Shown in pieces: positions 384-49,144 of a stretch of 64,000 bases of DNA. Under the pieces are notes generated by a model, which was given only the letters and a program-made list of their open reading frames with translations, did no database searches and was not told where the DNA came from. Numbering within the stretch: the first letter of the stretch is position 1; each line of letters starts with the position of its first letter. The stretch spans positions 10,852,501-10,916,500 of the forward strand of contig OZ019759.1 in assembly GCA_947034885.2 (NCBI GenBank), read 5' to 3'. The stretch comes from Thuidium tamariscinum (lineage: Eukaryota > Streptophyta > Bryopsida > Hypnales > Thuidiaceae). The position numbers and the translations under genes are program-made.

Positions 384-613
384 TTACATCTTTGGCTCTG
401 CAAGATTGAAGCTCTAAGGACTATCTATGTGGTTTCTGTTTTTCCTCTTTAGTGCAGACTTCATAGTTTAACGTGTGTTTGTTGAAGTGTAAAAAAAGTG
501 TCTCTTTTTGTTTTCGAATGGAATGGTAAGAGAAGAAGCTGTTGTGGTCTAAAATGGTTTGGAAAAATTTTATTTCGTGGTTCCAATTATTCCCGAGCAG
601 TCTGTAGTACAAC
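384..613. other. Non-coding flank left of the large element
   Basis: I see no convincing gene here. A minus-strand open frame (421-702) runs across the low-complexity GAGC repeats of the element end and has no recognisable domain. Confidence 0.4.
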
Positions 614-850
614 GATGCTAGCGTGCGAGCGTGGAGCGGCGAGCCTATGAGCCGTGAGCGTGGAGCCTGTGAGCGGGAAGCCTCCAAACCAGATATTTTC
701 AAATTTTTTGGGTAAAATTACTTTTTTTCATTTTTTTTTTCAAAATTCTAATTTTTTTTCCATTTGTTCTTCAATTTAAGACCTATGACCGTGTGACCTA
801 TTACCGCGTCACCAATGATCATGACCTATGACCGTGTCACCTATGACAAT
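614..850 (+). repeat. Left inverted-repeat end of the large element
   Basis: It begins with TGCTAGCGTG followed by tandem GAGC-type units (GAGCGTGGAGC, GAGCCTATGAGC), then poly-T tracts, then tandem copies of ACCTATGACCGTG at 781-836. The same blocks occur in reverse order and orientation at 15265-15381. Confidence 0.5.
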
Positions 851-1487
851 CATTTCTGTGAAATTTTAGTTTTTTTTGTTTAAAGTTTAATTTGATGAAG
901 ACAGAGGCCTTCAAAGTTTATCATACGTATTTTAGGATTTAGTTTCTCGACACTCTAAAAATTGTCAAACACTTGTATTGAAGCTATATCCTAGTGATAC
1001 TTTATGCCAAAATATAAAGCTAATTTTGTGTCCTTCTTAGTCTCATGATTGCCCCTACGTCATCATTTTTCAAATTTAAATACCATACCTGTACTATTGT
1101 AGACGTGTTTTATCTACACATGCTTCAATTGGTATTTTCAACAAAATGTCAAAGAACCGAGGGGAATATAATTCGATATCATGATGACGGAGAAAGGCTA
1201 TTCCCCCACACGGTCCTTTGCCATGTATGACCATCGAAGAAGAGAACTCTTATAGTAGCGCGTTGTAGAATGGCAATTGTTATGGGACATATGAATATGA
1301 ACCCTGGAATTTGAGTCTTGTCACTCTTCCTCATTTTCAGGGTTCATGAATACTCTTCGCTCACATACAAGCATAGTTGCATCAACACTTTCTAATACTT
1401 TTGTAATATGAGGAAATGAATTTCAAACAGCAATTATAATATATATTTATAAATGAAATTGAAAAACATAAACATATCTAGCCATAC
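851..1487. other. AT-rich non-coding stretch downstream of the SWIM gene
   Basis: No gene seen. It would hold the 3' untranslated region and terminator of the minus-strand gene that stops at 1488. A 61-codon plus-strand frame at 1045-1230 has no domain features and is taken as chance. Confidence 0.4.
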
Positions 1488-4400
1488 CTATTCTGGAATT
1501 GCAATAATTCCTGCTCGAACTAGAAGTACCTTCAATTCATTGAAGCTACAACTTGGTGCATGAATGAATTTGTCTTCGTGGACATCCATCTTGCAAAAGT
1601 ACCTGTACAAATAGTACAAGTGCTTGCAGTTCACGTACTGTTGTCGACCACCAATAGCTGAAACAGCCATATTCACAAAGTCTGGACATGTACACGTTGG
1701 AAATATACCTATTGTAACTCGATATGCATTCCTGTTAGAATCTGACCCTGTCTCGAGTACTACAATTGCACCAAGTCCTGGAAAAGGGAGCAAAGTCACC
1801 TCTAGAATTTGGCCTCTGACATTGCCCGCACTTTCCCACTTATTCCGTTGTTCGGTGGTTGGTGCATTTGCAACCCTTCGAATGGTACGGTTATTCCTCA
1901 CTGTTGGATATGCGTCAGGGTTCTTCGGTGAAGGGTGGTCATACAAAGCAGTGGTGAAAATCTTTGACATAGTGAACAATCGAAGTGGTGACAATACTGG
2001 CTGTGCTTGTAGGTGAAATCCAACATGCTGCAACAATAATGTCTCTTCACGATTGAGGTTTGTTCCAATGAGAATAGGCCAAACCTCTGGTATCTCGGGC
2101 CAATCAATAACCCACTTCCGTTTAGAACCCTTCACACAACGTTCAATGTCATCCCAGCAAAACCAAAAGTCAACTACCACTTCTCGTTTACTACCATATT
2201 CTTCTTTTCTTCCGCGGTAGGTTGGCGCTGGAGTTCCCTTCTTTCCCCTTGAAATTTTAGCTGTGCACTTGATGTTTGAGGTCTTCTGTTGAGCTTGACA
2301 TCTTGCATTTGATTTGTGGTTGATTCTTGCAATATGCCATTTGGATGTGTCGCAATCACTCTCAAATGCAATTGGAACATATATTGAAGTATTCGCCTCA
2401 GATTCTTTAGTCTTGTCCTGCAAAGAAGGTGAAGAAGTTGTCGTAGACCTTGTTCTAACACGAGGTTGAGAGAAATTCATTTTGTCCGGTCTATGTGAAT
2501 CACCTGCATCACCAATGGGGACATCTAACTTCCTCTTCATGCTCCCAAATATTTCTTCTCCTTCTAAGTGCGGTATTCTTGTTCCCACACCTTCTGATCC
2601 CGGCAAAGCATTCAACGCATCTGCAATTTTTTTGGGATCTCCACTCCTCCTAGCAGCTCTGAGTTTCAACTCTCCTTTTGAGGGACCTGAGCCCGATGCA
2701 TGGCCTTTCAAGTATGCTCTGTAATTTGTCATTTGCATCCAAGCACGGATACTGTCATCACATGTTGCATCAAATAAGTTGTTCCCTCGATTTCCCGACA
2801 TTTGCAGCCACTTGTTATGTACCGTTTCAGATAGGTTACATGATGGTAAGTCCAGCATCTCCTCCAAACTCAATTTCTAGGAAAGCCAGAGAACTCAAAA
2901 GAAGTTAGTCTTGTATACTTCAAATAAATCAAGCTTCTTTGCATGTATCTACTTGTACGTATTCAATATACATTCTAACATTGTATACGACTAGCAATGA
3001 CTTCATCAATAGGGTTAATATATGGAAAACTACATAATGAAGAATATATCATTAATCCAAATTGTTAGTCCAAGAGATTAAATGCCTTTCAATTTTTTCA
3101 ATTCATCCAGAAATTTTTAATGTAAATCTCAAATTTGGGGGGTCCACCTAAAACCATTAATATATCCGTTGGATCCGGGTGATGTAATTACAATATTACT
3201 TGGACCCCTTCGTTTTCAGACATGGGAAGGAAAAATTGAAAAAATCTGAAAAAAATCCAAAAAAAATTGGATGTATTCACTACCACTTCATTCTTATCAT
3301 ATATTAAACTGAACTTTCTATTAGAGAATTTTTCATTTCATCTATAAGAATTACATAACTTGACATCAAAAATTCAACGCACCATGTCCATGAAGCCTCC
3401 CCACTGCCGATATCGAAAATGCCAAAAAGCCAGCCAATGATCTAAGTCACGAAGTGCATCTTCAGTTGCAGCTCCCGATGATAGCCACCATGAACGTATT
3501 GCCAAGTAACGTGTCTCTGCTTGGTCCATATTCTTCGAATCTTTGTATTGCTTGCATAACGAAATATGTTGTTGTTGGAATGCCTCTTTGATGTACTTCT
3601 GTGTATGTCTATGGAGAGAGGTACTCCAATGCAGCAAACATGTTCTTTCACGATTCTCCATTGCAACATTGGCAGAACCGCTACCATACACAATGCGAAT
3701 TGCATTCCAATTGGCCATGGCACTATCTGCCATAAATCCCTTGAAATTCGGATTAGGCACCCCATGTTGAAGCATTACTGTGTTTAAACTTCGCCAAAAT
3801 TGTACTTGAACCTCGGTGTCTTCAGATTGCATATCACAAATAGCTACAGTCATCACCTTCTTGTACTCCGTATCATACACGTGGCAAGCCATTGTGGTCC
3901 ACTCCTTCACGCGCTTCACGTGGTCAAACATCAACCAAGCATTCTGCAGATCACTTCCTCCTTGCATGCGCTTCACAAGGTCTACTCCACTCCCAGGCCC
4001 CTCTGTAAGCATTTTAAAAATGTAGACCTTTTCTTTACCTTGTCCTGGAAAGACGTTGTCGTGTATGAATTCGAACTTCGACTCTTTCTTCATGGTCATA
4101 ATGTTGTCAATTACTCCTCCACGATTGTTTGAACGGAAAGAAGAGATAACGTTGCGGATACTTGGACTACTCAGGTACTGGAAGCGATCCATAACCTCTT
4201 CCATTTCCTCCTCCTTCAACATCTCCTTCTTGCCCACTCCATTGTGAAACAAGTAGTTTGTTAAGAAGTCTTTACTAGCTGAAAGAGCAATAGCAGAGTT
4301 TGTAGCCAAGGGTGTCTTTGCCACTTGCTCCGCTATAAGTCCGCAAATCTTTTCAGTAGAATCTCTGTACATGCCCTTAGCAACAGGGTGCCTGTGCTCT

Positions 4401-4702
4401 CCAAAGTGAATTGTTGCTCTACTCACTTCTGGCTTATTACTGCATACGTAATATATCCTAGCTGGGCATGCGCTAAGACACATAGGTGAAGTTTTGCAAA
4501 CCTTGCATATTAGAGTTGAGTCTACAGGTGTACACTCTCCCGGAGTAAAAGGGAATACAGTATATCCAGTCCACTCTATCTCATTTTTCTTTGAAGTTCT
4601 CTTCAGATAATCACAATTTGCATTCTCACAAGAAAGATGTCCAACACAGAATGACTTACGGAATTTCAAGTTGTCGGAGTTGTGAATGTTTGTAGTCATC
4701 AC
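1488..4702 (-). CDS. DDE-like transposase with C-terminal SWIM zinc finger, two exons
   Basis: Two exons can be joined with good sites. Exon one runs 4702-3383 and the donor is ATG|GTGCGT at 3382. The acceptor is CCTAG|AAATTG, so exon two starts at 2876 and ends at the stop at 1488. The phase is kept across the 506-nt intron. The first exon has a Cys/His cluster at residues about 20-110 (CENANC, CKVCKTSPMC, GEHRHP), like the GCM/FLYWCH-type DNA-binding heads of plant transposases. A core follows with MACHVYDTEY, AICDMQSED, MADSAMANWNA, a conserved HW pair and WLAFWHFRYRQWGG. The second exon carries a SWIM finger, CTCPDF...CKHLYYLYRY. Mutator-like transposases share this order, and a cut-and-paste nuclear role is inferred. 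The upstream frame (4709-5542) is the same frame behind one TAG, so the true protein may be longer. Confidence 0.65.
2877..3382 (-). other. Intron of the SWIM transposase gene
   Basis: It is AT-rich and bounded by GT at 3382 and AG at 2878-2877. Joining its flanks keeps the reading frame. Confidence 0.6.
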
Positions 4703-4708
4703 TTTACA

Positions 4709-5542
4709 CTACGGATGTCCGTCGTATCGCTTATCCATCCCCTCCAAATTGCGGGCCCCTGATGAAGAAGAAGATGAGCGGCATGGTGGCAATTCGAAGA
4801 TGACATCTCCATCAAAGACGGCGGGAAGAAATGGAACTTGCATGTGCTTGAAACTGCCCAGATCCATTGTTGACAACTCATTCCGAGAGCGGCGCATGGT
4901 ACCTAGTCTCTTCAAACAATCCACTATGCTCTCTATGCTCGCTACATGTGGATTGAAATGGGGGACCGTCGATGCCGATTTTGAAGGACTACTTGAAGGG
5001 ATTGCGGATAGTGACTCAATTGTTTCCATCTTGCATGGTGCAAGCAGAACATAACTAGCAGGATTCTCAAAACCAGAGTGAGGAGTTTCCCCATCAGAAT
5101 CTGAAGACAACTCAATGATTGGATCTAATCTCTCTACTTTCACTGCACGAAGTGCTTTATGCTTCTCAAGAATTGGCGAAGCTTCCGGAGGTGGACTAAG
5201 TGCAATGCCCGATTTGGTACATGGCATATTCACTGTAGAATTATCTGACTGACGACTAAGGATTTCCAAGGACGCACTGAACATAGACAGTGGAAGCCCA
5301 TACGCTCTATAGTTTCCTGGACCAAGGTACCAACAACGTATTCCGTCCTCTACGGACACAACAACAGGGATGGACTCCTGGACTTCACCCGAATCTAGCA
5401 TTTTTTCCTCTTCAACATATATGGAGGTCTCTATAAATTTGAATCGAACATGGAGAAGGTGGGAGGCCACTCTAGCGGGTTTACCATCTACTACTGGAAA
5501 AACCAAAGGAACTTCACGGCCATCTACTCTAATGTAAGCCAT
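4709..5542 (-). CDS. N-terminal part of the SWIM transposase gene, ended by in-frame TAG
   Basis: This frame opens at ATG 5542-5540, just after a clean acceptor (GGATTTCAG|G), so an upstream non-coding or coding exon probably exists. It gives about 277 residues: a hydrophobic first part (MAYIRVDGREVPLVFPVV), a middle with GIRCWYLGPGNYRAYGLP, and a Ser/Pro/acidic-rich linker (PIIELSSDSDGETP). It stops at TAG 4711-4709. The next ATG, at 4702, is in the same frame only two codons further on. The simplest reading is one long exon split by a single nonsense change. Two separate genes are possible but the spacing argues against it. I recognise no domain in this part. Confidence 0.5.
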   Translation of the reverse strand: MAYIRVDGREVPLVFPVVDGKPARVASHLLHVRFKFIETSIYVEEEKMLDSGEVQESIPVVVSVEDGIRCWYLGPGNYRAYGLPLSMFSASLEILSRQSDNSTVNMPCTKSGIALSPPPEASPILEKHKALRAVKVERLDPIIELSSDSDGETPHSGFENPASYVLLAPCKMETIESLSAIPSSSPSKSASTVPHFNPHVASIESIVDCLKRLGTMRRSRNELSTMDLGSFKHMQVPFLPAVFDGDVIFELPPCRSSSSSSGARNLEGMDKRYDGHP

Positions 5543-5543
5543 C

Positions 5544-6420
5544 CTGAAATCCAAAAGAGGGTTGTGAGAAAGAGAAGACTATGAATCCTTGGAACCACAT
5601 GAGTTTGAAATGAACACAAGCATGACTACATTTGAACTTTGTCATGTCTAGAGATATAAAATCTTATCTATTTCTATTTCATCCAATTTTAGCCGCCACT
5701 GTGCTTTACATTCTTCATTTATTAGCAACCTTCTTATAGGGCCTAAAACATTGAAATAATTACTTCTGTAATATAATTAATTTAAAAGTACTTCTGACAT
5801 ACACGTTTGAAAAAGCAAACACCTCTATTCCACAGAATCCTTCAATATTGTATAATCTTAAGAAATTAAAACATAGCCACTAATGTAAGGTCTACAAGTC
5901 CTTCTCTAATGAAATTTAATTCTCTGTGTGGAGGCGGCTGTCATAGCCCATTATTACTGTAGAATCTGACATGTTAGCGGTCATTTTAGTAGACAGCAAA
6001 CTCACTTTTTTGAATTGCAGAAATTAAGGCTTCAGGGTGAAGAAACTGACAATGACAAAACTGTCAAGTCCAGATCCTCCAATAAGTTTTTGCCGGCGCC
6101 GCCCATAGTACATCATTCAACCCATGTAACATTGTACTCCCACGCGCGTCATTACTCCATATGAGGAAAAAGCGGCTAACCCTAACCTTCTACTTACACC
6201 ATAAGAAGGAGGAACCTTGGCTCCAAACACATTCTTATCAATTGCTTGTGGAAGTGCGGGAGAGTGCGGGAGAGTGCGGGAGTTGTGATGTTCTAGCTTC
6301 TGACTTCATGCTTGTAGAGAATAGTAGAGATTTCTTGGGTAGTTCGAATCATAGAAGAAGAAAGAGGAAGCGAACTGCATTCTATTTCTCATCCTCTCGG
6401 GCTTTAAGACGATCTAGAAT
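5544..6420. other. Intergenic region between the divergent genes
   Basis: It lies upstream of the minus-strand transposase and holds its 5' region and probably a first exon I cannot define. A perfect three-unit tandem repeat of AGTGCGGGAG sits at 6253-6282. No other element recognised. Confidence 0.4.
6253..6282 (+). repeat. 10-bp tandem repeat, three units
   Basis: The unit AGTGCGGGAG is repeated three times without change. Confidence 0.8.
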
Positions 6421-6611
6421 GACAAGAGGGAGAAGAGGGCCATCTAAGTTAGCACACGCAGCAGAAGATCTTCGGAGATCCCTTCACTTTGAAGGAGAGA
6501 GCACTGGTGGGGAGGAGGAGGACCAGATCCACGTCGGTGAAGCAGTCCAGGAGACGTACGAAGCCAATACCAATATTGAGGCAGGTGGAACAGCACAGAG
6601 TTACAGAACTG
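6421..6611 (+). CDS. Candidate first exon of an unrecognised gene
   Basis: ATG at 6420-6422 opens a frame of about 64 codons (MTRGRRGPSKLAHAAEDLRR at the start, then acidic Glu/Gly-rich). It runs to a good donor, CAGAACT|GTAAGA, near 6611. Beyond that the frame soon turns hydrophobic and stops at 6718. The short basic start resembles in style the first exon at 7783 (MTQTTRSRAREGSS), so it could be an alternative or duplicated first exon of the ParB-methyltransferase gene. I found no matching second exon nearby other than those of that gene. It is weakly supported. Confidence 0.25.
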
Positions 6612-6718
6612 TAAGATCCGCTAGAAAATTTCTTTGCTTTAGTGTTGCCTCTTCAATTTTGTTATCTCCGCAACTTCTGGGAGAGTGTCACGGTATTTTA
6701 TATCTTCCAGAATTTTGA

Positions 6719-7249
6719 TGTACGCATTTCAATTAGATTATTGAAGGCGGAATAGGAATTTGAAGGGTGTAATGTATACACTTTCACTACTTATGAGAGA
6801 GATATCTTATGTTGAGAGCTAAGAATTCAGTGTACAAAGCTTAGCCTTTTTGTTGAGGATCTGTAAGATTCAATATTTCAAGATGCTCTTAATAGACTAC
6901 CATATACGATTTTCTTTTCATTTTGAGCTTGGCTATAGTATTGACGTATTCAAAAGTATCCAAACCTATACCAACCTTAATCCAAGACAAAGAGGATAAA
7001 TAACCGACAATGGAACAACTAGATTAAAGAATAACCAAAATTTAATCATTCACCACTAAATATATAGCTGTTAGAGGCACAAAAAAAATCATTAACATCA
7101 ATAGGAAATCTTTTCTTGACCAAAAAATGAAGAATGATTATGCATTAATTAAATTCTACTTAAAAGTTGATTTTGATATTCCATCATCTGCATTGACAAT
7201 GCCATTAAAAAATTAAATTTGAAAATTGGATTACCTCATGACGAATAAG
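6719..7249. other. AT-rich non-coding stretch
   Basis: I see no gene, RNA or clear repeat here. Confidence 0.5.
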
Positions 7250-7360
7250 AAATTGCCACGCGTCCGTTCTGACGTGGCACAAGGAGGACGAAAACTGGAC
7301 TCATATGGGTCCTGCCCTGTTACTGCGTGCCACGTCAACAGTGACAGGCCACGTCACGGC
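7250..7360 (+). promoter_or_regulatory. Cluster of ACGT-core (bZIP/G-box-like) motifs
   Basis: TGACGTGGCAC at 7270-7280, its inverse GTGCCACGTCA at 7327-7337, GCCACGTCACG at 7348-7358 and GCCACGCGTCC near 7256 lie within about 110 bp, some 430 nt upstream of the ATG at 7783. ACGT-core sites are known targets of plant bZIP and bHLH factors. A promoter role for the ParB-methyltransferase gene is inferred. The stretch loosely resembles the CACGTGG-rich part of the SINE-like repeat at 19085-19150, so it may instead be a repeat fragment. Confidence 0.3.
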
Positions 7361-7782
7361 ACCTCCGTATTATCACCTCGTAATATCACATTATCATGCG
7401 GTTGCTTCAGTCTGTCAAAAAGTGCCTCGGGAGGTCCGTTGAGAATCTGCAGATTTAGAAAACTAAAATCTCGGGAGGCTTGCGGCGCGCGGAGAGACCA
7501 GGAGCAGAGAATACAGATCGACATGGGATCCTCGCCTTCGCGAATCACCCGCGGCGCGTATCCACCTCGCATTCGGAGAGAATGTTTCGGATTTCTTATC
7601 CTGACAGGGAATGTTGCCATTCTGGTGCCTGCTTGGCATGCAAGGCTTTCGCTTACAAGGCTCCTGACCTCGAGCAACTGATCCACTTCGGAGCTGGATT
7701 CTGAGCGTCGGAGGACCTGTGCTCTCATTTTCACTTCCATGCGCATGTTTGAGATTCTTCTGCTTCTGCTCAGGACACAAGG

Positions 7783-10700
7783 ATGACACAAACTACTCGA
7801 AGCCGGGCGCGGGAGGGCTCATCGACGCCACCAGCTCCAGCTGCAAGAAGGAAACTGCGGAAGAGCTCCAAGGTTAAACTCAACTCATTTTGTTTCTCAC
7901 CTGCGCAAGTGCTCGGTCATGCCGAAGGAATCCTCTGATTTCCTGGTCTTCCTACGATAGGATACAAGGTCGGCGTCTTTAGTTTTGTGTTTGGAGTTCT
8001 TCAGTTCTTGGTTGCAAAGTCCCAGACTTCCACAACAGGTTGGACAAGAGAATCCAGTAGTTGCGTCGATGTACACGGGATCACTCCGAACCAGGTTCCG
8101 ACGATTGGTGTCGTTGTTCTGTCATCAAGAATTTTTTAAAAATCCCCGCAGGGTTGCTTACTTCGGGGGTCCAGACTTTGGCAGTCCGAGGTAGCTCGGA
8201 TCTGAGCTACCTCGGACTGCCAAAGTCTGGACCCCCGAAGAATGCAACCCTGCGGGGATTTTTTGTTTCTTTTTTCAAAATTTCATTCATGAAACCAAGT
8301 CATGCTAGGATTTCGATGATGATCTCAGGCAGGCAGGAGTTTTGTCGATGCACAATCTCATTTTGATAACTAGCTCCTATTTACAGAAGTTTTGGACGTC
8401 AAATGCGAGTTGCAGACCTCTTATCACGATCATTTTTAAGTTTGAAAGTGGGATTTTGGAAGTTCGGTTATGATCTATAGATCTGAAAATGAAGATACGT
8501 TAAGAGTATTGAACTCTGGTTTTCATGTATTGCATGCGGGAGAAGGATCTCCAGCCGTCAGATGATGGTGATCCTGGGGTCCCCATGATCGTAGCCTGGT
8601 GACCATCGGATCCGCCGGTCACCCGGCCACGATCATGGGGACCCCAGGATCTCCATCATCTGACGGCTATAATTTTTTTTTAAATTTTTAAAAATTTTTT
8701 CATTAATTTTTTTAAGATTTTTTTCATTAATTTTAAAATTTTAAAAATTTTTTCATTAATTTTTTCAAAAAAAATTTCATTAATTTATTTTTCATTAATT
8801 TTAAATCGAAATTAATATTTTGATATATATATATATATATATATATGTTGTATTTTTTAGATATTTTTTAAGAAAAAAAAAATGAAAATAATTTTTTTTA
8901 ATTAGTTAAGCCTTTACAGGTGTCTGATACTTAAGACCGTGAGGTCCCCAAGATCGTGGCCTGGTGACCGTCGGATCCGACGGTCACCGGGCCCCGATCT
9001 TGGGGACCTCACGGTCTCAAGTACCAGACTCCAAAATTTAATAAAATATTTTTTTTTTTTGGAAAAAATGAAATTTTGGTTAATTTTACAATGATTTCAA
9101 CGAATTAGCGGAATTCAAAGATTCTTCATTTACTAAAAATTTTCGATTTTATAGATTTTGGAATTGTAGTATGTTAATGAATTTTGAATGTTATTGATTA
9201 GAAATGCCTTCGCTTTAAGTCTTTCATATATTTTTATTGTTATTGTTCCAAAGTATATGGCTAACTAGACTAAATTTCATGGTGCCAATAAAGAATGTAG
9301 AATGAATCAAAGTCCAAGATGATGGGAGTCTTGTCTTTAGTGCTATAAAACCCTGAGATCATCTATCTCTTAGTAATGGGCTTCTATACTTTCAAGTGTG
9401 TCCATGAATGACTTCCAATTTGTTCTATCTTTATGTATTTTCTAAGTAAATTAATTTTTTTGGGACTGTGATTTTGAAAACAGGAAGGACGTGAAGAAGG
9501 GGCCTCTTCACCTTTAGCACCAGTTGACAGTGCCTTGGTGACTCATGGAGCGGGTCCATCCCAGTTCCCTGCACGAGTGAATCGAAATGTTGATGTTTCA
9601 AGTGACTCCGAAGAGGACACACAAGCTCCATGTGAAGACTTGGTAAGTTTTGATGACATCATGGATGCAGCATCGCAAGTAGCAGATGCCTTTGAGAGTT
9701 CAGTGACGAGTCGAGTGAGTGACATCAGGGCTCGCAGTAAAAGACATTTTGCAAGGCAATTAGAGATTCTGTATAAGAGAGGAAGATTCACGTCTCTAGA
9801 GAGCTCTGACACTGAGTATAGCTCAGAGTCACAAACCTCTATCACAGTAGATGGTCCACCACAACAAGAGTTTTGTATGTATGCTCATAGTGGTCCTACA
9901 GGTCCACAGGAGCTAGTGTTCATCCACTTGAGCTCAGACTCAGAAGGGGATATAGAGATAGACTAAGTGGATTTAGCTTTATTTTAAACTATACATATTT
10001 TATGTAAAACCCTATTGAAATTTTATAAATTACTAAAGTTTTCTTTATGTATACTTTCAAAGAATATAGGTTTCCATTGGATCTTGAATTGACTTAGATT
10101 TTGACTCCTCATATTTAGATTTGTAGACATTGATTTCTTTTTTGATTTTGCAGATGGATGTGTCACCAGTCAACCTTTCTCAAGAAGACACTATTCTTGA
10201 GACTCCAAACACGGAAGAGACAATTCAACAAGAGATTTCAAGTGTACCCAAGGATTCTAAGGAGGGACAAGATGTGTTGGAGCAAGATGTGTTGTATGAC
10301 TTCATAGCAGAAGAGGACAAGGACTTGTTGGAGGATGATTTGCGACAGTTCCAAAAAGGGGATTCCGTGAACACAATAGCAAGCCTAAGAATGAAGCCGG
10401 ATCACTTATTCCGGCTTCAAATTCCTTTGTGTCGAATGGTGTCTATACCGATGGTGAGACCTACCCTTTCTTCTGATTTGGAATTGCTCGAGCACGAGTT
10501 TGCAGTTGGTTACCATGAGGGTGCAGCAATTTTTTATGTGACTACAACAAACGAAGCTGGGGAGAGCTCCGAGTTCACCGAAGAAGAGATGGACAAGTGG
10601 GATCCATTTTGGAAAGAAAAAAACAGTACATTCATTGCCCATTTGGAGTCGAAGCCCGAGTTGAGGTTCTTAAGGAACCTGAAGTTCTATGTTTGTGACG

Positions 10701-13700
10701 GTAACCACCGTCTCATCTCATGGATGAACTACATTTCCAGGAGACACTCCAATGACAGGAAATGGCATTATTGTGTGGATTCAATTGTCTTGGAGACAAA
10801 GGGCAGAATCGAGCTTACCATGCATGTCATGCATGACATTAACAAGTATGGAATACCCTAAACCCTCAATTTCTATGCTTTCAATTCATAATTTAGTAGA
10901 AATCTCAAAATATGGATTCACGATGAACACGACATTGAGAAACTTGTTTTGTATGACAGATCAACGGAAGGCTCTCATGTGAAGACGAATATGATTCACA
11001 ACATATACCAGGTTCAGAAGTATGGGTTGTTACCTATTGAACGGTTCAATGAGATGTTGAGGCCGTCAGAGTTGAAGCGGTGTGGACTACCGAAAACCAA
11101 GAAGACGTGGTATTCTATGCCACAAGAGGTCTTCACTTCCTTTATTTTCCGGGTGAGATATTCCTTTCCCATGTTTCTTAATTTTCATTTGACTAATGTT
11201 TTCTATTAATTTTTGAGGTACTGATTTCAAGTCATTTGGGAACTTGGTTTTCTCAGCAAGAAATATCTCAAGCCGCTGACGCAGCTGCTCGCAAATACAA
11301 TGAGGTCACTCCAGAGGGCAAGAACACTGCGGAAGGTCTTGCACAAGCAATGAGAGATGGGGCAAAAGAGAAGACTGGAAAGTTGAACTCGAAGATGTCC
11401 AAATTGTTAGCGGTGGCAAATCCAGCTAATACGCCTGGATTTTTGGAAGAAGTAAGTAATTTCTCCATTTCATAATAAAATGAGAAATGTCACTTGAAAA
11501 TCCCATACAAATCTAATTTTTTTTTCTCTGGTGTAGGTGGAGAAGCATTGGATCTCAAATGAGATTCCTGAGATGACCTTGGAGAAGTTGCAGATGGTTG
11601 CAACATGCAATACGACTCCGGCTCATAAAATCAAGTTCTTGAAGTGGTGGAATTCTTCCATCCTTTCACGGGAGTCAAGGCGTTTCCCACCGAAACTAGT
11701 ATCTGAATTACTACTTGGTCCATTTCTAAACCGATGTGTCTGGTATGCTGGGGTAAGCACTTCTTATCATCACATGCTGCATTCTTGAAATTCGATTTGA
11801 GAAAGGCATTCTTATAAATGTTTGAGTATTGAAATTGAACCACTATTGTTTGCTTAGAATGGTTTATAATTTGTTTATCAATTACAACAGATTGAGGATG
11901 CTGCACTTGAATACTTTGAGGCGGTGGTAAGCCAAGACAACATTCCTATCAACATGAAGCTTCCCTCAAAGCCCGAGACGTTAGTGGACTATTTGGAAGG
12001 ATGGAAGAGGAAGATTTGGGATCAAGGTTTCATGGCACAGTTGAGAGGAGCTAACTACTTCAAGAAAAGTGACAACTTCCACACTTTTGAGGGGGCCAAT
12101 CATGCTCTGCGTAGGGTTCTCTTTCGGTGAGTTCTTCCTAATAATTAACTGTCTTCATTCCTACTTATTGCACAATTCTCTAATTTTTTGTGCTACTTAG
12201 TTGTTTTTTTCCGTGATGTTCAATATTTTGGGGGTCCTAGCGGTACCTCTTGGACATCCGTCGGATCCGCCGGATGTCCAAGAGGTACCTCTGGGACCCC
12301 CCAATTTCCATCACTGGAATTGAAATAACGACTTTTTAAATGAGATTTTTTTTTGGGTTCAAATGTGGTTTCTTTTTGTTTTGCTTGTGGATTGTATCTT
12401 TATCATTGTTTGTCTTCCAAGCTTCTATTACTTACCACATTATTGCTCATGGCAGGTACTTCAAGTATGAGCTAGAAGCAAAAGGTGCCATTGAGAAAGC
12501 AGACCTTCCTCCATTTCTATCTGGATTTCTTGACCGCAACTCATCGGATTGCATGTTCACGGCGAATCAAATTCGCACATTCACCACGGCTCATCTTAGT
12601 GGTGGGGGTGGTACCTTGATTGCCCTATTTCTTATACACATCCATCTGAGGTAGAGCTGCGGAATTCTTTGGAGGGAATTGGCACCGTGACCATGGAGGT
12701 TGATGAGTTTGTTGGCCTCACTGAGAAGCAGAGGCAAAAGGCCATTGCAAGGAGGGAGACTAATGACAGAAGAAAAGCTGCTCACATTCAGTTGGCTCTA
12801 AAGAACAAAGAGAAGAAAGAAGCCGAGCGTCTTGCAAAGTTAGAGGAGAAGGAGAAGGAGAGGGAGAAGAAGGACGAGGAGAAGGAACGGGCAAAAGGGA
12901 AGAAAATAGTAGATGGCAGTGGCGCTCCAACATCATCAACATTGGATGAAGGTTCTCAGATGCAAGGTGCATCTCAGGGAGGATTGAAGAGGAAGGCGGT
13001 ACTTCCTGACTTCACGGAAGAAGTCATCACTCAAGGGACCCAAGTCATTGCCCTTGGTGATGATGATGATGTCACCTCCGAGGAGTTACTATTGGGTGTC
13101 TCCATTGGAGAAGTGGTAGACAATGAAGGTGTACGGGGATCAAATTGTTACACCGAGGTCATGGAGTTTCTGCGGAAGGTAATCTTTGTCATTGTCACTG
13201 TATTGTGCAGTTCAATTGGATCACGAAAAGAGTATTATTTTGTATTTCTATTCATCAAATTCTCATATATTGAAGAAATGAACTTGCAGATGGTGGTAGG
13301 AAAAGCAAGAGTTTATGGTGGGGTTGTCAATCGGCATCAAGGAGTTGATCTTATGATTTTTGACTGCCAAGAGAACTTGCCTGTACCAGACATTGGGGGC
13401 TCCAAGCACATTCCTTATTGGAACGCAGATAAGGAGTATTTTACCATCTTTCAAGCTTTTGCATTTGCAGACAAGCATTTGCAGGACGACGGTTGCATTG
13501 TTGTGTTCCATTCTTGAGGCCAAGACTCCTTGGAAACCATTGCAGGACTTCTTCAAGAGTACCCAAACATCAGGAAGATGAAAGAGTGGATGGGCATGAA
13601 CCGCATGCACCTTACATCAGCAGTTCAACCAGATCAAACGGTATTACTTTCTTAATGTTTGAAAATATTCATTAGAAGATGAATTAGTTACTTTTTTTGT

Positions 13701-14670
13701 TACTTATTCTCATGTCACTTTTGCTTGTGCTTGCAGACTTTGAAGTTTGGCATTACACTGTTTGTCAAGCATCTAGGAGATCGAGGGAAATCAAATTTTC
13801 AGTTCAGGCGTTCTCAAACCATGCTGAAAGCCAAGGTAGACCTCCGTCGCGATGACCTGCTCATGAATTACACAATGGAGGACACCATGTTGATGAATGA
13901 CATGGATCGAATGACTTGGCGCGGAGCTCGAGAGAAGGACGCCCGCTTCATTCAGTTCATCATCGAAGGCACCACTGATGAAGGAGACATAGTACTTGAT
14001 TGTACTGCATCTACAGGTGAGTTCTGATTTCTTGAATGTCTTGAAACCATCTCTACTTTATGTAGTCAATGATTACAAAAATGATTCACCTTCTGGTTTG
14101 TGGCAGGTGCATCTATTACTGCATGCCGTGCAACGGGGCGTCATATTGTTGCGTTGGAAGAAGACAAGAGGATTTTTCAACACATCCTCTTGCCAATGAA
14201 GAAGGTAGATGCTCCAGTGATCGTGGCTCCAAGTTCAGAGGCAGCACCTGTGGTTTTATCACAAGATCAAGATGCTGTTGTGATTGTGCCTCGGAAGTTC
14301 GTTCGGCGCCCTAAACCTTGTAAGTAAGTTTTTTTATATATCCATTTTCTATTTTCATTGTAGTTGGAATGTTTCATTTATCTAACAATGCATTTGGTGC
14401 ATATGTAGCAACGACGGAGTAATCATGGAGGACGAAGTGAAGAAGAGACAAAGACTCATCTGAAGCCCGGAGAAGCCGTTCGATCTTCCAATCTATGCAG
14501 AGCAATTAGCATCAGCGTTTGTTGAGTTTGGTACTTCTAAATCCAAAAAACGCAAACCTTCTTACGCTCTAAATGTCTTACAATTCATAGATGGATCAGC
14601 GTCTGAGGGTAGAGAGACTTCAGAGTCTTCTAGTGACATGGATTCTGCGACAGAGTCTACTGCAAATTAG
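7783..14670 (+). CDS. ParB-like / DNA amino-methyltransferase-like multi-exon gene, damaged
   Basis: Exons read by eye: 7783-7872, 9484 to about 9642 (donor TTG|GTAAGT; the frame stays open to a stop at 9966), 10154 to about 10847, about 10905-11152, 11257-11451, 11537-11752, 11891-12126, 12456-13178, 13290-13640, 13737-14016, 14107 to about 14330 and 14409-14670. Most junctions have consensus GT-AG sites and keep phase. In order the protein has a basic start, a Ser/acid-rich linker, a ParB-like domain (CDGNHRLISW in exon 3), helical segments, a KEKKEAERLAKLEEKEKERE coiled coil, and a C-terminal methyltransferase-like fold. That fold places the catalytic region (VDLMIFDCQENLPVP) before the SAM-binding motif (DCTASTGASITAC). 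Three lesions are seen: a G-run frameshift at 12604-12608, TGA at 13515-13517 and TGA at 14461-14463. A role in marking or binding transposon DNA is inferred. It may be a pseudogene. Confidence 0.6.
8138..8263. repeat. Intron hairpin 1 (foldback element)
   Basis: The two arms of about 60 bp are nearly perfect reverse complements (AAAATCCCCGCAGGGTTGC pairs with its inverse at the right end). They meet at a centre reading GCTCGGATCTGAGC. The arms are GC-rich inside AT-rich intron 1 of the ParB-methyltransferase gene. Length and structure suit a MITE or snapback repeat. Confidence 0.8.
8553..8668. repeat. Intron hairpin 2 (foldback element)
   Basis: AGCCGTCAGATGATGG at the left pairs with CCATCATCTGACGGCT at the right, and the arms contain GGGGTCCCCATGATCG. 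The centre is ATCGGATCCGCCGG. It lies in intron 1 of the ParB-methyltransferase gene. Confidence 0.8.
8822..8846. repeat. (AT)n microsatellite
   Basis: A pure run of about 12 AT units between hairpins 2 and 3. Confidence 0.9.
8922..9029. repeat. Intron hairpin 3 (foldback element)
   Basis: GTCTGATACTTAAGACCGTG at the left pairs with the right arm ending CAAGTACCAGAC. The arms carry GAGGTCCCCAAGATCG and the centre is GTCGGATCCGAC. The inner arms are very similar to hairpin 2 (GGTGACC[A/G]TCGGATCCG). It lies in intron 1. Confidence 0.8.
10394..10850 (+). other. ParB-like nuclease/partition fold domain
   Basis: The segment from FRLQIPLCRMVSI to the end of exon 3 has the layout of ParB-N/sulfiredoxin-like domains: a beta strand with conserved Val-Ile positions, a variable middle, then VCDGNHRLISWMNY, which matches the [D/G]G[N/Q/E][H/R]RL signature. 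In bacteria and phages such domains are often fused to DNA methyltransferases. CTPase activity and specificity cannot be judged from the sequence. Confidence 0.55.
12229..12302. repeat. Intron hairpin 4 (foldback element)
   Basis: GGTACCTCTTGGACATCCG pairs with CGGATGTCCAAGAGGTACC around a centre TCGGATCCGC. The outer arms are GGGGGTCC and GGACCCCC. It lies in the intron between the exons ending at 12126 and starting at 12456. Confidence 0.8.
13290..14330 (+). other. Methyltransferase-like domain with atypical catalytic motif
   Basis: Spread over three exons. VDLMIFDCQENLPVP occupies the position where N4-cytosine and N6-adenine methyltransferases have [D/N/S]PP[Y/F/W]. Next come FADKHLQDDGCIVVFHS, the in-frame TGA, and a helix-rich region. 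DIVLDCTASTGASITAC followed by GRHIVALEED fits the SAM-binding loop and the following acidic strand end. The order (catalytic motif first, SAM motif last) is that of beta-class permuted amino-methyltransferases. Loss of the PP[Y/F/W] core suggests an inactive or altered enzyme. Confidence 0.5.
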
Positions 14671-15264
14671 ACTCATGGAATTGACATATTTCATGAGTCA
14701 AACCAGTATGTTTTGATTTTTATTATGATTGGATTTGTGTGCTTTATGGCTATATATTGTTTGCTCTCATGGCTATATAGTGTTTGCTTCTATTGCTATA
14801 TACAGTTTTTTTTATAGCTATAAATTGTTTTTTATTTTTCTCTTGAATCTTGTTATTTGGAATTTTCTATTCAATTGAATATCAAGGAAATAGATCGTCA
14901 CCTACAAATGGGTCTCAATGAAAAAAATGGGAAGTTAACATATACTCCCCTCCAAATGGATCTCAATGAAAAAAATGGGAAGCTGAACATATAGTCCCTT
15001 CCAAATGGTTATGTATGAATAAAAATGGCAAGTAAAATATACACTTTATCTTCCTTGAAATACAATATATTTTCACTAAATATAAATTGAAGAACCCTAA
15101 ACCAACTCGAACCAAAGACATAATAAATTTGGTGTTGAACAAAGAACTTTAAATCCAACACAAATTCATTATTACAAGCTCTTTTGACGGACTTAAGGTT
15201 TCTGCGGGAGGAAATATCCAAAATTCCAAATAACCCTCCAAAAGCAGTATACACTATTCAAAAC
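14671..15264. other. Non-coding 3' flank of the methyltransferase-like gene
   Basis: It has degenerate repeats of GGCTATATA-TGTTTGC at about 14745-14830, then the 48-bp tandem repeat at 14903-15008. An 81-codon minus-strand frame (15009-15254) shows no domain and is not called. Confidence 0.5.
14903..15008. repeat. 48-49 bp tandem repeat, two to three units
   Basis: Units contain CAAATGG[G/A]TCTCAATGAAA followed by AAAATGGGAAG and recur at about 14904, 14953 and 15001. Confidence 0.7.
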
Positions 15265-15381
15265 CACGGTCATAGGTAAATCCACGGTTACAGATCCTCA
15301 TCCACTTTTTTGGAAAAAAAATCCACTTTTTTGGCCAAAAAAAGTTCCTGCTCACAGGCTCCCAGGCTCACACGCTAGCAA
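15265..15381 (-). repeat. Right inverted-repeat end of the large element
   Basis: In reverse complement it reads TGCTAGCGTGTGAGC, AGCCTGTGAGCAGGAA, poly-T, then ACCTATGACCGTG, the same order as at 614-850. Confidence 0.5.
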
Positions 15382-15407
15382 CCCTGCATTGACCCTGCAT
15401 GTTCTGG

Positions 15408-16022
15408 TCAGTTTAGCATGTCATTGTGGTGGTACAGATGGAACAAGTAGGTGCAAATAGGACTAGATTTGTTCCGCTCAACATGTTCGGCTAGCCGATT
15501 GACTACATACTGGATGACTAGGCTCCAGTTGACTATCCGCTTCTCGAAGCATCTGAAAATGGTGTTCGCTACCGTGACAGTGACCCGGGTAGGCTTTTCC
15601 GGATAGAGGATGGGAATTAGGAATTCCAACATCCGCCTATGCCGGTCATTCTCACAATCTGTAACAGAGTATCCGTCCTTCGGGTGGGGCGGATTCCAGA
15701 ACCTCGAGACGCCAAACTTATCAGTCCGGGGAGCCATACCTAATCCGGTTTTCTCAAACCCGTAAACTTTTGCCCAGACTTCCGACAACCAGGTGCCTGG
15801 TCTACCCCTCACTGTTAGCTGATATTGATTCGGAGCTCCCGAGAAGAGTTCCTACACCATCTCATCACTCTTGATGCTCCACGGGCGCCAAATCAAACCT
15901 TCACATCCTAGGAACACTAAATCATCCTCTAACTCCTTCAGATGCTACGGATTGGAAGGGATTATCGGCGAAATTGCCTTGGCAGTCACCATTATCCGTT
16001 TCGGATTGGAGGAGCTCGCCAT
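15408..16022 (-). pseudogene. Gag-like family copy 1, truncated and with two stops
   Basis: ATG at 16022-16020 opens a frame of 205 codons interrupted by TAG at 15947-15945 and TAG at 15854-15852; the frame is unchanged across both. The protein has the family signature: FLGCEG...RPWS near residue 50, WAKVYGFEK, then TDKFG, HPKDGYSVTDC, RRMLEFL, RVTVTVANTIF and ICTYLFHLY. It stops at 15408-15410, where the two longer copies (36330 and 42630) go on into a charged coiled-coil part, so only the N-terminal domain is left. The function is unknown. The layout recalls the gag-like 'putative plant transposon protein' domain, but I cannot confirm that. A TATA-like motif lies about 180 nt upstream. Confidence 0.5.
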
Positions 16023-30618: not shown

Positions 30619-33600
30619 ATGGCAGAGCAACGTGCACATGTACCCATTAGTACTAATGGACGAACACTACGGCACATTCCTGTTGGAGATCTGATTCTAC
30701 AGACGGAGTTGCGGGTGGCAACTGAGAAAGAAGTCCGAAGCTTCAGATGTCCGTGTCGAAATTGTCACGACGGACGACGGAAAACGATTGAAGTGATTTG
30801 AACACATCATGCGGCAGTGGGGAGGGATCCATTTCTAGTGAAGTCCATGATAGGTGGCGATCCCACTGATGGCTATCCAGCATGCGGAATATGGGTGGAA
30901 GATGAAGCGTATGACAATGATATTGTTGATGTCGATCCTGAGCATGTTGCAGCACACGTGGACAATGATCCTCAACAACAAAGTGGGCATCTCGGAACAG
31001 ATGATCCAGAAGATGCTCGCCTAGATGCACATCACGAGGTGCACCGTCAAGTCATGGAGGCTCTTGATCGTGGAGATGCCTTGTACAAAGAGATTGGTGA
31101 TGGTATAGATGTTGAAGACAATGATGAAGGTGACAGTGATATTGTTGATGGATTGGAGGAACTCTATGACCAAGCGACAACCCCAGTATACACAAGGGCA
31201 ACGTGCAGTGTTGTTTCTGCTACAATTGTGATCATGAATATGTGTACCGTGTTCCGCGTCAGCAACAAATTCACAAATGAGTTGTTGCGGTATTTGGCAA
31301 TAGATTTGTTACCAACGCAAAATAAGTTGCCAACTTCACATTATATTGCTCGACGAAGTATACGGAAGTTGGGGTTGAATTATAACAATGTGCATGCTTG
31401 CTCAGATGGATGTGTGTTATTTGAAGAAGAGTACGCTGCTTTGGACAGTTGCCCGAAGTGCAATCTATCCCATTGGGTTGAAGGTAGTACAACAATTCCA
31501 GCAAAAGTGATTCGTCACTTTCCGCTTATTCCTCGATTGAAATGCATGTGGAGGTCTGCTGAGATAGCGAGTATGTTAACAGGCTATACAAAGCATGTTA
31601 GAACAGATGGTGTTATGCAATCGGTGGTGGACAGTCTTGCTTGGAAGCACGTTGACACTGATCCAATATTTGGAAATTTCGGAGCTGAGAAGAAGAATAT
31701 GCGATTTGCATTAACTCTCGATGGGGTCAACCCATTCAAATTGAGCAATACCAACTGGTCGACGTGGCCTGTACTCATTTTAAGCCATGGTTCGTCACGA
31801 AGAAGTTTTTCATTTCCCTGTGCATACGGATATCTGGGAAGCACTCACCAACAACGAAGAATATGGACATCTACTTGAGGCCACTCATGAGGGAACTACA
31901 TGAATTATGGGACGGCGTGCAAGCATTAGACTATTCAAAACTTGAAGGCACAAGGAGTTTCTTGCTTCGTGGTCTTGTGATGTGGACTATATCTGATTTT
32001 CCAGCGTATGGTTTAATATCAGGATTTTGTTGTAAGGGTTGCAAAGGATGTCCTCCATGTGGACCTCAAACAAAAGCACGTATGGCAAGAACAGGTGATG
32101 TTCTACCGAACGGGAGGACAAGAGGTTCAAAAATAGTTTATGGTGGCATGAGACGATATCTACCAGGTCACCATCCGTACCGTCGAAATAAGAGGTTCAA
32201 CGGAGCTGTTGAAGACCGTGAACAACCTCCAGTAGTCTCTGGACTAGATGTGATACGATATGCTGCATGGCGCCAAGCCTATCTAGATCTGGGTGGGAAG
32301 GAAAATGGTAAAGATGATCCTGTACATTGGACAGGGGTGAAACGGTTGTGTGCTTTGTACGATCTCCCATATTGGCAAGTACAGCATACTTCTACAAATC
32401 ATTTATTGGAAAAGAATGTCCATTGTGCAATTAGAGGTGGAAAGAATGTGAACTACATGCAATGTTAAAAAACAACAAGAAACGGCTTACTAGTTTTTCT
32501 GAATCACAATGGTAATCGTTGTAGCTTGAAAACTTTGGAAGTACTCTTGATGCTTGATTGTCAAACTCAATGTTGAATAGTCAAAACTGATGCCTCGTTT
32601 TCGATGTCTGTCACAATACTTACTCATTCGACATGTTCTGGACGTCATGCACTATGAGAAGAATCTATGTGAGAATATTGTGAAGACATTGATGGCAATG
32701 AATGATAGCGCTGGAAGTCGTCAAGATGTGCAGAACATGGGTATTCGTGAAGAATTATGGCTGAAGCCATCCGAGCATGCGAATGCGCAATATTATATGC
32801 CCCATGCACCTTACGTGTTAAATGCAGAAGAGCAAAAAGAGTTTGTCAGTGTTATATCGAGCATTCGAACACCAACAAATTATGTTGGTGCAATTCACAA
32901 GCGTTTAGTGGATGGGAAACTGCACTACATGAAAACACATGATTACCATGTGTTGATGCAACAGGTTAGTTCCACAGTGAAGCAGAATGTCATGGATATG
33001 GAATGTTCAATTGCTTCTACATATTGCTTTCTCTATTTGGAACGTAGTTCATTTTATTAGTGGTCCTCAGTGAAAAACACTGTATGAATTTGAATAGCAC
33101 TTAGGTACGTTTAGTTCCTCTAAATTTAGAAATTATAAATTATGAAGACAGTACACAGTTTCTGAATGAAGCCCACGACGTGGTACTACATGTACACAAT
33201 GTAAGACGCTTGCATTGTAGATATCATTAAGCTCTGTTTGAATTTCATATTTGTGTAGGTACTTCCAGTGGCTGTTCGCGGTGTACTCAATGAAAGTGTA
33301 CGCTTAGTAATTATAAAGATAAGTAGAGTTTTCCAAAGACTTTGTGCAAAACAAGTACGTCAGTCTGATGAAGTAGACATGATGAAGGATGTCGTGATTG
33401 CAACCTGCATGCTGGAGAAAGAGTTTCCTCCAACTTTTCTGAACATGATGACTCATCTTCCAATACATCTAGTACAACAATTATTCATGTACAGTCCAGT
33501 GCATTGACGTTGGATGTACCCTATAGAAAGATACATGAAAACGTTGAAAGATTATGTGCGTACGTATGCTCATCCGGAGGGAAGCATAGCAGAAGGATAT

Positions 33601-33816
33601 CGAATGGAAGACACCTTGGGATTCTGCACGGAGTACATGAAGCAATATAGAGGAACAACCCACAGAGTGTGGGATGCCATGGAAGATGCCATTATGAATG
33701 ATGAGGTTCTGCCGCCACATGAATCAAGGAAGCGCAAAATGTCACAAGAGATGCGGACATATGCCCATGCATTTGTTCTAGACAACGCTGCGTGTTTGCA
33801 AACTTGGCGAGAGTAA
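30619..33816 (+). pseudogene. TNP2-type CACTA transposase with DUF4218-like region, decayed
   Basis: Exons: 30619 to about 32355, about 32605-32964 and 33259-33814. The first part starts MAEQRAHVPISTNGRTLRHI and has the Cys motif FRCPCRNCHDGRRKT, a transposase-associated zinc-binding head. The catalytic core shows FALTLDGVNPF, LVMWTISDFPAYGLISGF with CKGCPPCGP, and VMHYEKNLCENI, which I read as the D, D and E positions of TNP2. YMKTHDYHVLMQQ and HLPIHLVQQLFM...YPIERYMKTLK are typical of the adjoining DUF4218 region. Breaks: TGA at 30799-30801, a frameshift near 31780 at the end of WPVLIL, and TGA near 33505 just before RWMYPIERYMK. It would have been the enzyme that cuts and rejoins CACTA ends. 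Confidence 0.8.
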
Positions 33817-34144
33817 GTGTTTTTCCTTCAATTCGCAATGGAAGCTATAATTATTGTTGAACACTGACCACTGACATTTCTGGCTCGAAGGTATACACAT
33901 TCCCATCAGCTTCTAAAGTCACTTTCCCAGATTGGGAAAGAGTCATCGTACAGTACTGTGAAAGCAATGCACAGTAGTGTAGGAACAACAGGAACGGAAG
34001 TGCATCTCTTTCACAGAATTGTGTAAGTACATATGCAATAATCGGATGTAGTTTCGTACTTGATAATGAGGAGCGTCTGTTGTTGCTCGCAAGCAATATA
34101 CAACATCCAAAACAAGAAGATGGGAAGAGCGAGAAGCGTATCGG

Positions 34145-34900
34145 TTGGAATATAGACGCCGCCATGCAGCTAGGGTTGTACGGTTTCCTCTTGACCTAGC
34201 CGACCTACCATCATTTGTAGATTGGTTTCGTGAACAAGTATGTAATGCACAAAATAATGGAGAAGATGTCGACGCTGATGTTCTACAGTATAGCGTACCA
34301 CCGGAAAGGTCAGCTACCTCACATCGGCAAATGTATTGTTTTGGAGTGCATTTCCATGTACGTAGTTCTGAAGCATCCCTTGTAATAAAGGATTCTTGTG
34401 TCATAGCTTCGTTTGCTCGGGAACTACGATGGGGTATGCAGAATGGAAGACCTGTTGAGACAACAGATGATTACGTGGGGTACATTGAAGAAATCCTAGA
34501 GTTAGACTACCGCAACAATTGCACCACCGTATTGGTATGCGATTGGGTACGAACGTCACATGATGCACGTTCACCAAATATTGTACGAGACAAATATGGT
34601 TTCACAGTGGCGAACTTCAACCACATGGATGGCAAAGTACATGCAAATTCATTTGCATTTCCTTTGCATTGTCAACAAGTATTTTTCTCAGATGATCCAC
34701 ACAAACGTGGATGGAAGGTTGTGTGTAGAACAGATGTCCGAGGTAGACGCAATGAACCGATCTTCGCAACAAATAGTCAGAACTTACTAGATGTAGGGAA
34801 TGATGTGGACTTCGTTGGTTTGCAGCCACCGATGTTACAAACAGACCCACTTAGGCTACCTCAAACAACCGGCGGTACGTATATTAGGACAGTGGAATAG
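34145..34900 (+). CDS. DUF4216-like C-terminal part of TNP2
   Basis: This is an unbroken frame of 251 codons beginning MEYRRRHAARVVRFPLDLAD. It has YVGYIEEILELDYRNNCTTV, VCDWV, DKYGFTVANFNH, FAFPLHCQQVFFSDD and WKVVCRTDVRGRR, the usual sequence of motifs of the DUF4216 domain that follows DUF4218 in TNP2 genes. The second CACTA element has the same domain at 47659-46886 (YGFTVADFSR, FAFPTQCQQVFFLDD, WKVVCGTKVRGRR). It is probably the last exon of the TNP2 gene rather than a separate gene; an intron of about 330 nt would lie between. The frame ends with TAG at 34898-34900. Confidence 0.75.
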   Translation: MEYRRRHAARVVRFPLDLADLPSFVDWFREQVCNAQNNGEDVDADVLQYSVPPERSATSHRQMYCFGVHFHVRSSEASLVIKDSCVIASFARELRWGMQNGRPVETTDDYVGYIEEILELDYRNNCTTVLVCDWVRTSHDARSPNIVRDKYGFTVANFNHMDGKVHANSFAFPLHCQQVFFSDDPHKRGWKVVCRTDVRGRRNEPIFATNSQNLLDVGNDVDFVGLQPPMLQTDPLRLPQTTGGTYIRTVE

Positions 34901-47659: not shown

Positions 47660-47959
47660 ATAATTAGTGTACTTTCAAACTACATTGTGCCTCTCCTAGT
47701 TCTTCAATACATGCATACTACATACAATGTCATTTTCCTTAATCCTAATATTACACATTCATTGCAGCTACGACTTTGACCTAATACACTCCAGCACGAC
47801 ACATTTACGTTATGCAAATGTCCAACAACTTCTATTACAAACAAAATTACACATTCTAAAAGAAAATATGGAGTTAGTTACGAATCCAGGCTTCTCTTCT
47901 GCTAAACTTTCAGTGTTATAGCTTTCTTATTTAAGCACATCCAATTTGTAAATAGGAAC

Positions 47960-49123: not shown

Positions 49124-49144
49124 ATGCCGACAAAGTAGTTGCTG

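Follow-up and report, generated by a model that had tools for sequence, protein, structure and literature searches.

Does a moss transposon carry a gene whose product could mark the element's own DNA? The question is raised by a 64,000-nt stretch of the Thuidium tamariscinum genome (contig OZ019759.1, positions 10,852,501–10,916,500 of the forward strand), referred to here as the window, within which all positions are counted. A preliminary description of this stretch had proposed a large eukaryotic DNA element that pairs a transposase gene with a gene for a ParB-methyltransferase fusion. The element is borne out by genome-wide searches for its ends and by copy alignments: it is about 14.8 kb long, has shared ends and is present in many copies. 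That it is a Mutator-like DNA transposon with a fixed, selected accessory gene is well supported. Ordinary self-marking at N6 of adenine (N6A) or N4 of cytosine (N4C) is doubtful, because the DPPY motif of amino-methyltransferases is replaced by DC[QP]EN. On balance, we lean towards a Mutator-like plant transposon with a fixed module, made of a ParB-like domain and an altered, permuted beta-class methyltransferase, that has an accessory role.

The element, its ends and its copies

All three inverted blocks initially proposed for the ends are present. The first pairs 616–634 with 15362–15380 (19 nt, 89%), the second pairs 662–679 with 15345–15362 (18 nt, 94%), and the third is the motif CCTATGACCGTG at 782 and 825 on the forward strand, found at 15265 on the reverse strand with 0 mismatches. 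When the two element ends are aligned locally, the top single alignment has a score of 37, which was reached by 1 of 1939 random window pairs. One inverted block by itself is modest evidence, and the reality of the element was therefore decided by its copies in the genome. In the left-end search, in which the best 40 of 310 candidates were scored (89–100% identity), 32 loci start at query position 49–51, equivalent to window position 608–610. The right-end search, with the best 40 of 134 candidates scored, gave 26 loci that end at query position 216–218, equivalent to 15385–15387. The element borders are 610 and 15386, which corrects the ends of 614 and 15381 proposed at first for what is a real element. 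From the 40 ends scored on each side, 25 same-strand pairs can be formed, 19 of which span 14.6–15.5 kb, the remaining six measuring 5.5, 16.6, 19.2, 19.8, 37.3 and 50.8 kb.

The window copy (c1) was compared with ten further copies (c2–c11). Three of them (c5, c8 and c9) align with it from end to end at 95.5–98.1% identity, and c10 aligns as two pieces at 96.6–97.4%. Copies c2 and c3 are 97–98% identical to the window copy on both sides and just 70–77% identical in the middle, from 6884 to 9318. A similar low-identity middle, together with insertions, is found in c6, c7 and c11, the last of which lacks its final right-end bases; c4 is alignable up to 11484. Two subfamilies can be distinguished by this middle stretch, with flanking gene modules that are about 97% alike. 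The transition/transversion ratios of c1 against three copies (2.0, 3.0 and 1.4) are uninformative. As a separate observation, 22 of the scored left ends have at least 96% identity (the window's own counted), and 17 of these, as well as 20 of the 40 overall, lie on a single contig, C11, that comprises 17.5 of 363 Mb or 4.8% of the genome. This enrichment may reflect a sex chromosome or local hopping, and it is biased because the ends were ranked by their similarity to a copy on C11.

Target-site duplications (TSDs) were scored in the 18 copies in which both flanks were read, namely c1, c2, c3, c5, c8, c9, c10 and 11 additional ones with the prefix k; the count leaves out c11, with its truncated right end, and c4, c6 and c7, in which the right flank was not reached. 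A TSD of 9–10 bp is found in 13 of these 18 copies. It is an exact 10-bp repeat in eleven (c2, c3, c9, k12, k13, k14, k17, k18, k23, k24 and k25) and has 9 bp in two (c8 and k31). No TSD is seen in c1, c5, c10, k16 and k20. The constant duplication for which the preliminary description had called is thus near-constant across the copies, at 10 bp, but is missing at the window copy itself. Two of the copies that lack a TSD, c5 and k16, are on one contig in opposite orientation with their 10-bp flanks exchanged between them, as if inter-copy recombination had inverted some 0.8 Mb; misassembly is the alternative. They are located on C11, k16 at 412–427 kb and c5 at 1.22–1.24 Mb. The missing TSD of the window copy was considered as an argument against an element and rejected, because a TSD is present in 13 of the 18 copies, and c5 and k16 hold swapped flanks.

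The motif CCTATGACCGTG, with up to one mismatch, faces inward at both ends of all six copies scanned in this way (window, c5, c8, c9, c10 and the diverged copy d2). Copies c3 and d1 have it on the left side. At the more distant locus L043, whose proteins are about 50–60% identical, it lies some 330 nt past the ParB-methyltransferase gene, at the position expected for the right end. With up to two mismatches allowed, the ends, which total 478 nt, contain the motif four times, and the rest of the window contains it twice, both times inside an internal palindrome of the element. These near-perfect palindromes with GGATC-like centres (8138–8263, 8553–8668, 8919–9032 and 12227–12304) have arms that are 90–95% complementary without a spacer, and one of them sits within an intron of the ParB-methyltransferase gene. 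They are possibly small fold-back insertions, and their centres were considered as candidate methylation sites.

Linkage, integrity and selection of the gene pair

The preliminary description had called for other copies with the same ends and the same gene pair. The genome was searched with exons of both genes. The best 150 of 642 candidates were kept for the ParB exon (57–100% identical), the best 150 of 598 for the exon that contains methyltransferase motif IV (49–100%) and the best 96 of 953 for the transposase core (78–100%), so that all locus counts are lower bounds. A divergent ParB exon is positioned 1–25 kb away at 76 of the 96 core loci. Conversely, 77 of the 150 ParB exons have a transposase core in the matching place, with a core list that ends at 78% identity, and the distance is 5.9–8.1 kb in 70 of these 77. 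Shifted core positions gave a mean of 0.65 and a maximum of 4 such matches, and three controls with a wrong arrangement gave 2, 4 and 3. The linked ParB exons are 59–100% identical, and a listed motif IV exon lies downstream of 98 of the 150 ParB exons. The transposase and ParB-methyltransferase genes form one unit across families.

The rightward gene has ten exons and a product of about 1,120 amino acids. Both genes are broken in the window copy, the transposase by an in-frame TAG at 4709 and the ParB-methyltransferase gene by a frameshift and in-frame stops. Copy c5 retains the full ParB-methyltransferase frame across ten exons with GT-AG joins, with motif I reading NCTAST, and has a stop in the transposase; in c3 the transposase frame is open but the ParB-methyltransferase gene contains stops. 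The divergent pair is present as first described, although the claim that the element encloses only two genes is inexact. In 10 of 11 copies a third open reading frame (ORF) runs uninterrupted from about 9490 to its stop codon, c10 having two internal stops; the ORF is also conserved in the diverged copy d2.

Both genes are under purifying selection. For pairs with a synonymous divergence (dS) of 0.2–1, the ratio of nonsynonymous to synonymous divergence (dN/dS) is 0.13–0.16 for the ParB exon, 0.13 for the motif IV exon (one pair), 0.06 for the motif I exon (one pair), 0.08–0.15 for the transposase core and 0.26–0.28 for the SWIM exon. Above a dS of 1 the ratio is mostly 0.05–0.23, near saturation, and many pairs have no ratio. 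Values are higher in close pairs (0.19–0.57, and 0.99 for c1–c8), as would be expected if the copies have ceased to act. Between c5 and d2, dS amounts to 0.23–0.29 in the transposase half and to 0.41–0.69 in the ParB-methyltransferase half, a difference that hints at an exchange of modules between families.

The encoded proteins and their possible role

The methyltransferase domain displays motif IV before motif I, the permuted order of the beta class. A profile built from nine sequences matches DpnA (5hfj, E 9.4e-4; 5hek, E 9.8e-4), followed by CcrMI (0.063) and an unrelated transporter (0.18), and in this alignment the DPPY of DpnA stands opposite DC[QP]E. The Pfam family N6_N4_Mtase is matched at 6.4e-5, just under its gathering score, and in 3 of the 9 members, the best at 1e-5. 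The domain is assigned to the beta class because of the two DpnA stretches taken together, the N6_N4_Mtase match and the motif order. No relatives were detected in phage records at E 1e-5 with a 261-residue piece around motif IV.

The residues of motif IV were determined in 20 sequences: ten close copies (of the eleven, c4 is without the exon), d2, and the nine loci L043–L051, hand-picked from the more distant matches of the ParB and motif IV exon searches. The first two residues are DC in 18 sequences and DY in two (c3 and c9), and DPP is found in none of the 20; the third position is occupied by Q 13 times, by P six times and by L once. The catalytic pattern (D/N/S)PP(Y/F/W) is missing from these sequences. 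Genome-wide, the coding pattern DC[QHP]ENLPV has 170 exact matches, the first 100 of which were listed by position and not all matched to exon hits, and the backward control has none. The pattern DPP[YF]NLPV has 0 matches in the genome, DPPW and other contexts not having been searched. Motif I, usually DPFxGxG, reads DCTASTG, and FxGxG is absent from the copies seen. Judging from these motifs, the protein is probably no longer an ordinary N6A or N4C methyltransferase. The earlier suggestion of an element able to mark its own DNA loses weight with the replacement of DPPY in 20 of 20 sequences, with which the genome pattern searches agree.

The ParB-like domain contains the motif FxxCDGNHR, as do ParB/Srx proteins; DGNH is conserved in five of five aligned sequences and the R in four of five. 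The ParB label is plausible in view of this conserved motif and of the architecture. A viral collection, scanned once with each query, gave no relatives for the ParB exon and none for the transposase core. Of the fusion first described, the methyltransferase half is recovered in permuted form, whereas the ParB half is without a significant profile match.

For the transposase, the start codon and the exon join are predicted. The Pfam SWIM model is matched below its cut-off (E 0.075 and 0.052); the Cys and His residues of the finger are kept in most copies, c8 being without one Cys, and the exon is interrupted in c6. The transposase-like core and the SWIM finger named in the preliminary description are visible as motifs by eye, but they are backed by no transposase profile. 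Both the SWIM-like finger and the D...D...CxxH pattern would suit a Mutator-like enzyme, and the Mutator (MULE) superfamily has TSDs of 9–11 bp, a range into which the 9–10 bp of the copies falls. Together with the short inverted repeats, these sequence features point to an element of Mutator-like character, the superfamily being assigned without a significant profile match. An origin outside Mutator, in another or a new superfamily such as KDZ or an unnamed SWIM group, seems less likely. It would agree with the lack of any Pfam transposase model for three pieces taken from the window (E up to 1) or for the 1,182-residue composite (E up to 5), a result that also counts against our reading, but the 10-bp TSDs, the finger and the D...D...CxxH pattern seen by eye argue for Mutator, and KDZ is likewise unmatched in Pfam by the pieces and the composite.

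Several roles can be considered for the ParB-methyltransferase gene. Mutator-like elements are known to take up host sequence, and the gene might be a neutral passenger acquired in this way, similar to the Pack-MULEs named in PMC12477816. Such a capture is very improbable and was rejected, as linked ParB exons ranging from 59 to 100% in identity all belong to one gene that keeps its orientation next to the transposase, and this gene is under purifying selection. Self-marking of the element by an active N6A or N4C methyltransferase would agree with the fold class and motif order of beta-class enzymes, with purifying selection and with a published proposal for similar algal proteins (PMC12477816). 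We consider it improbable, given that DPPY is replaced in all 20 sequences (18 DC, 2 DY), that DPP[YF]NLPV is absent from the genome within the scope given above, and that FxGxG of motif I has become TxSxG. No less improbable is a catalytic switch in which the cysteine of motif IV serves another methyl transfer or chemistry, for instance at C5 of pyrimidines as in PCQ enzymes. The D-C pair is under selection instead of decay in 18 of 20 sequences, and DCQE superficially resembles the PCQ of C5 enzymes, but the register differs and the methyltransferase matches are to amino-methyltransferases, other C5-enzyme motifs not having been looked for. More room is left, tentatively, for a bacterial-type amino-methyltransferase turned to another use in a plant transposon lineage, in which the conserved DC[QP]EN would belong to a ParB-guided protein at the element ends with either a new chemistry or a non-catalytic function as a guard against silencing.

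By analogy with the VANC proteins of Arabidopsis VANDAL elements, our preferred reading is that of a DNA-bound protein with an accessory or anti-silencing role. The ParB-methyltransferase protein is predicted to bind the element, for which the CCTATGACCGTG repeats inside both ends are the best candidate site, and the bound protein may then help the element by assisting transposition or by counteracting silencing, as VANC does. To our knowledge, no ParB or methyltransferase domain has been reported for VANC. A number of observations weigh against the accessory reading. DNA binding by the protein and its expression are predictions from sequence, as any methylation would be, and the subterminal repeats could instead be transposase sites. 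The ParB-like domain has no significant match among Pfam, PHROGs, NCBIfam or PDB profiles, the weak matches of the region being to DUF1015 (0.022 and 0.11) and to one unrelated NCBIfam model (0.002, far below its cut-off). The motif IV stretch of the DpnA alignment is weak alone (independent E 15–17), and the motif replacement makes ordinary amino-methylation less likely without proving a loss of activity. None of the 11 copies read, c4 and c7 in part, has both genes intact. Finally, 20 of the 96 core loci have no listed ParB exon; five of these have a motif IV exon in divergent orientation within 30 kb, five more lie 9.6–13.3 kb from a DC[QP]EN match (coordinates by eye), and ten stay unlinked.

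Features of the window and comparison with known systems

The features of the window copy are collected in Table 1. Outside the element, the ORFs at 30817–34900 (+) and 46886–51283 (−) resemble TNP2-type transposases of CACTA/EnSpm elements by eye. Two related ORFs (TVTVANTIF...) at 15408–15812 (−), adjoining the element on its right, and 36330–36845 (+) look like a repeated family, also by eye.

Table 1. Coordinates of the element copy in the window and of its parts.
Feature	Position	Strand	Evidence
Transposon copy, complete but damaged	610..15386	.	Genome-wide end mapping, copy alignments
Left terminal inverted repeat, CAACGATGCTAGCGTG..., inner block GAGC-rich	610..679	+	End alignments, copy flanks
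Subterminal tandem array, CCTATGACCGTG at 782 and 825, at 797 with 2 mismatches	780..847	+	
Transposase exon with SWIM-like finger CTC...CKH	1488..2876	−	ORF reading, copy comparison
Transposase exon with a serine-rich N-terminal part, a Cys/His-rich region and a D...D...CxxH core	3383..5542	−	Motifs by eye
Conserved third ORF, probably the final exon of a gene for an unnamed acidic protein	9486..9966	+	Copy comparison
ParB-methyltransferase exon 1, DGNHR motif at about 10697–10711	10154..10845	+	
ParB-methyltransferase exon 2	10960..11152	+	
ParB-methyltransferase exon 3	11257..11451	+	
ParB-methyltransferase exon 4	11537..11752	+	
ParB-methyltransferase exon 5	11891..12126	+	
ParB-methyltransferase exon 6, frame-shifted in window copy	12456..13178	+	
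ParB-methyltransferase exon 7, motif IV position FDCQEN, DCQE at about 13362–13373; in-frame TGA in window copy	13290..13640	+	
ParB-methyltransferase exon 8, start of motif I (VLDCTAST)	13737..14016	+	
ParB-methyltransferase exon 9, remainder of motif I region (GASITACRATGRHIVALE)	14107..14323	+	
ParB-methyltransferase exon 10, encoding the C-terminal tail, with a single in-frame stop in window copy	14409..14670	+	
Right-end subterminal motif, same as left CCTATGACCGTG	15265..15276	−	
Right terminal inverted repeat, reading inward CAGGGTTGCTAGCGTG...	15345..15386	−	End alignments, copy flanks, right-end search

The permuted motif order is shared with the bacterial beta-class enzymes DpnA and CcrM, of which DpnA retains DPPY. 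A fusion of ParB to an adenine methylase is described for Bacillus cereus (PMC5512222). Among eukaryotic elements, retrotransposons with DNA methyltransferases (DNMTs) are reported from Klebsormidium and Symbiodinium, and DNMT3 from retrotransposons of charophytes (PMC5890265). The Klebsormidium elements likewise carry a DNA methyltransferase for which purifying selection is reported; in these retrotransposons, however, the enzyme is of the C5 type with its key residues kept, in contrast to the altered amino-type domain of a DNA transposon found here. Mariner elements in viral genomes are DNA transposons that encode a methyltransferase beside the transposase, with Methyltransf_26 or C5-type domains and an endonuclease (PMC3627910); they are not known to carry ParB. 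Fungal DNA transposons with TET/JBP genes also carry a DNA-modification gene, but of another enzyme class (PMC12730594).

With respect to the predicted role, the element can be compared with the VANDAL elements of Arabidopsis, which are of Mutator type (PMC12730594) and encode the VANC anti-silencing proteins (PMC10398659). Like the present element, they belong to a plant, encode an accessory protein and have tandem repeats in their noncoding parts.

With respect to architecture, the idea of a new kind of element does not hold, because the same arrangement is reported for Sola1-1_Ec32 of the brown alga Ectocarpus (PMC12477816). This large DNA transposon encodes a 1104-residue protein with ParB-like and N4C/N6A methyltransferase domains on the strand opposite to the transposase, as here, and the same source cites ParB-methyltransferase transposons of green and red algae and already proposes self-modification. 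No ParB-methyltransferase transposon of a bryophyte or another land plant was found in the literature searched, and the host group, the transposase partner and the motif replacement have not been seen in the literature covered. As resources, the Thuidium genome offers many diverged families, at least one copy (c5) in which the ParB-methyltransferase frame is intact, a putative site for binding and a clear-cut change of residues. A SAM domain of LEAFY type (E 1.6e-27; none in 14 control genomes) is present in this genome, as suits a streptophyte. The algal element has a Sola-1 transposase, in contrast to the SWIM-like finger, the 10-bp TSDs and the plant host of the present one (PMC12477816). 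Our comparison with the algal proteins covers architecture and orientation, and motif IV reads DC[QP]EN here. If transposon-borne proteins of this kind act by binding and not by marking, the idea of self-methylation put forward for the algal cases would need rethinking.

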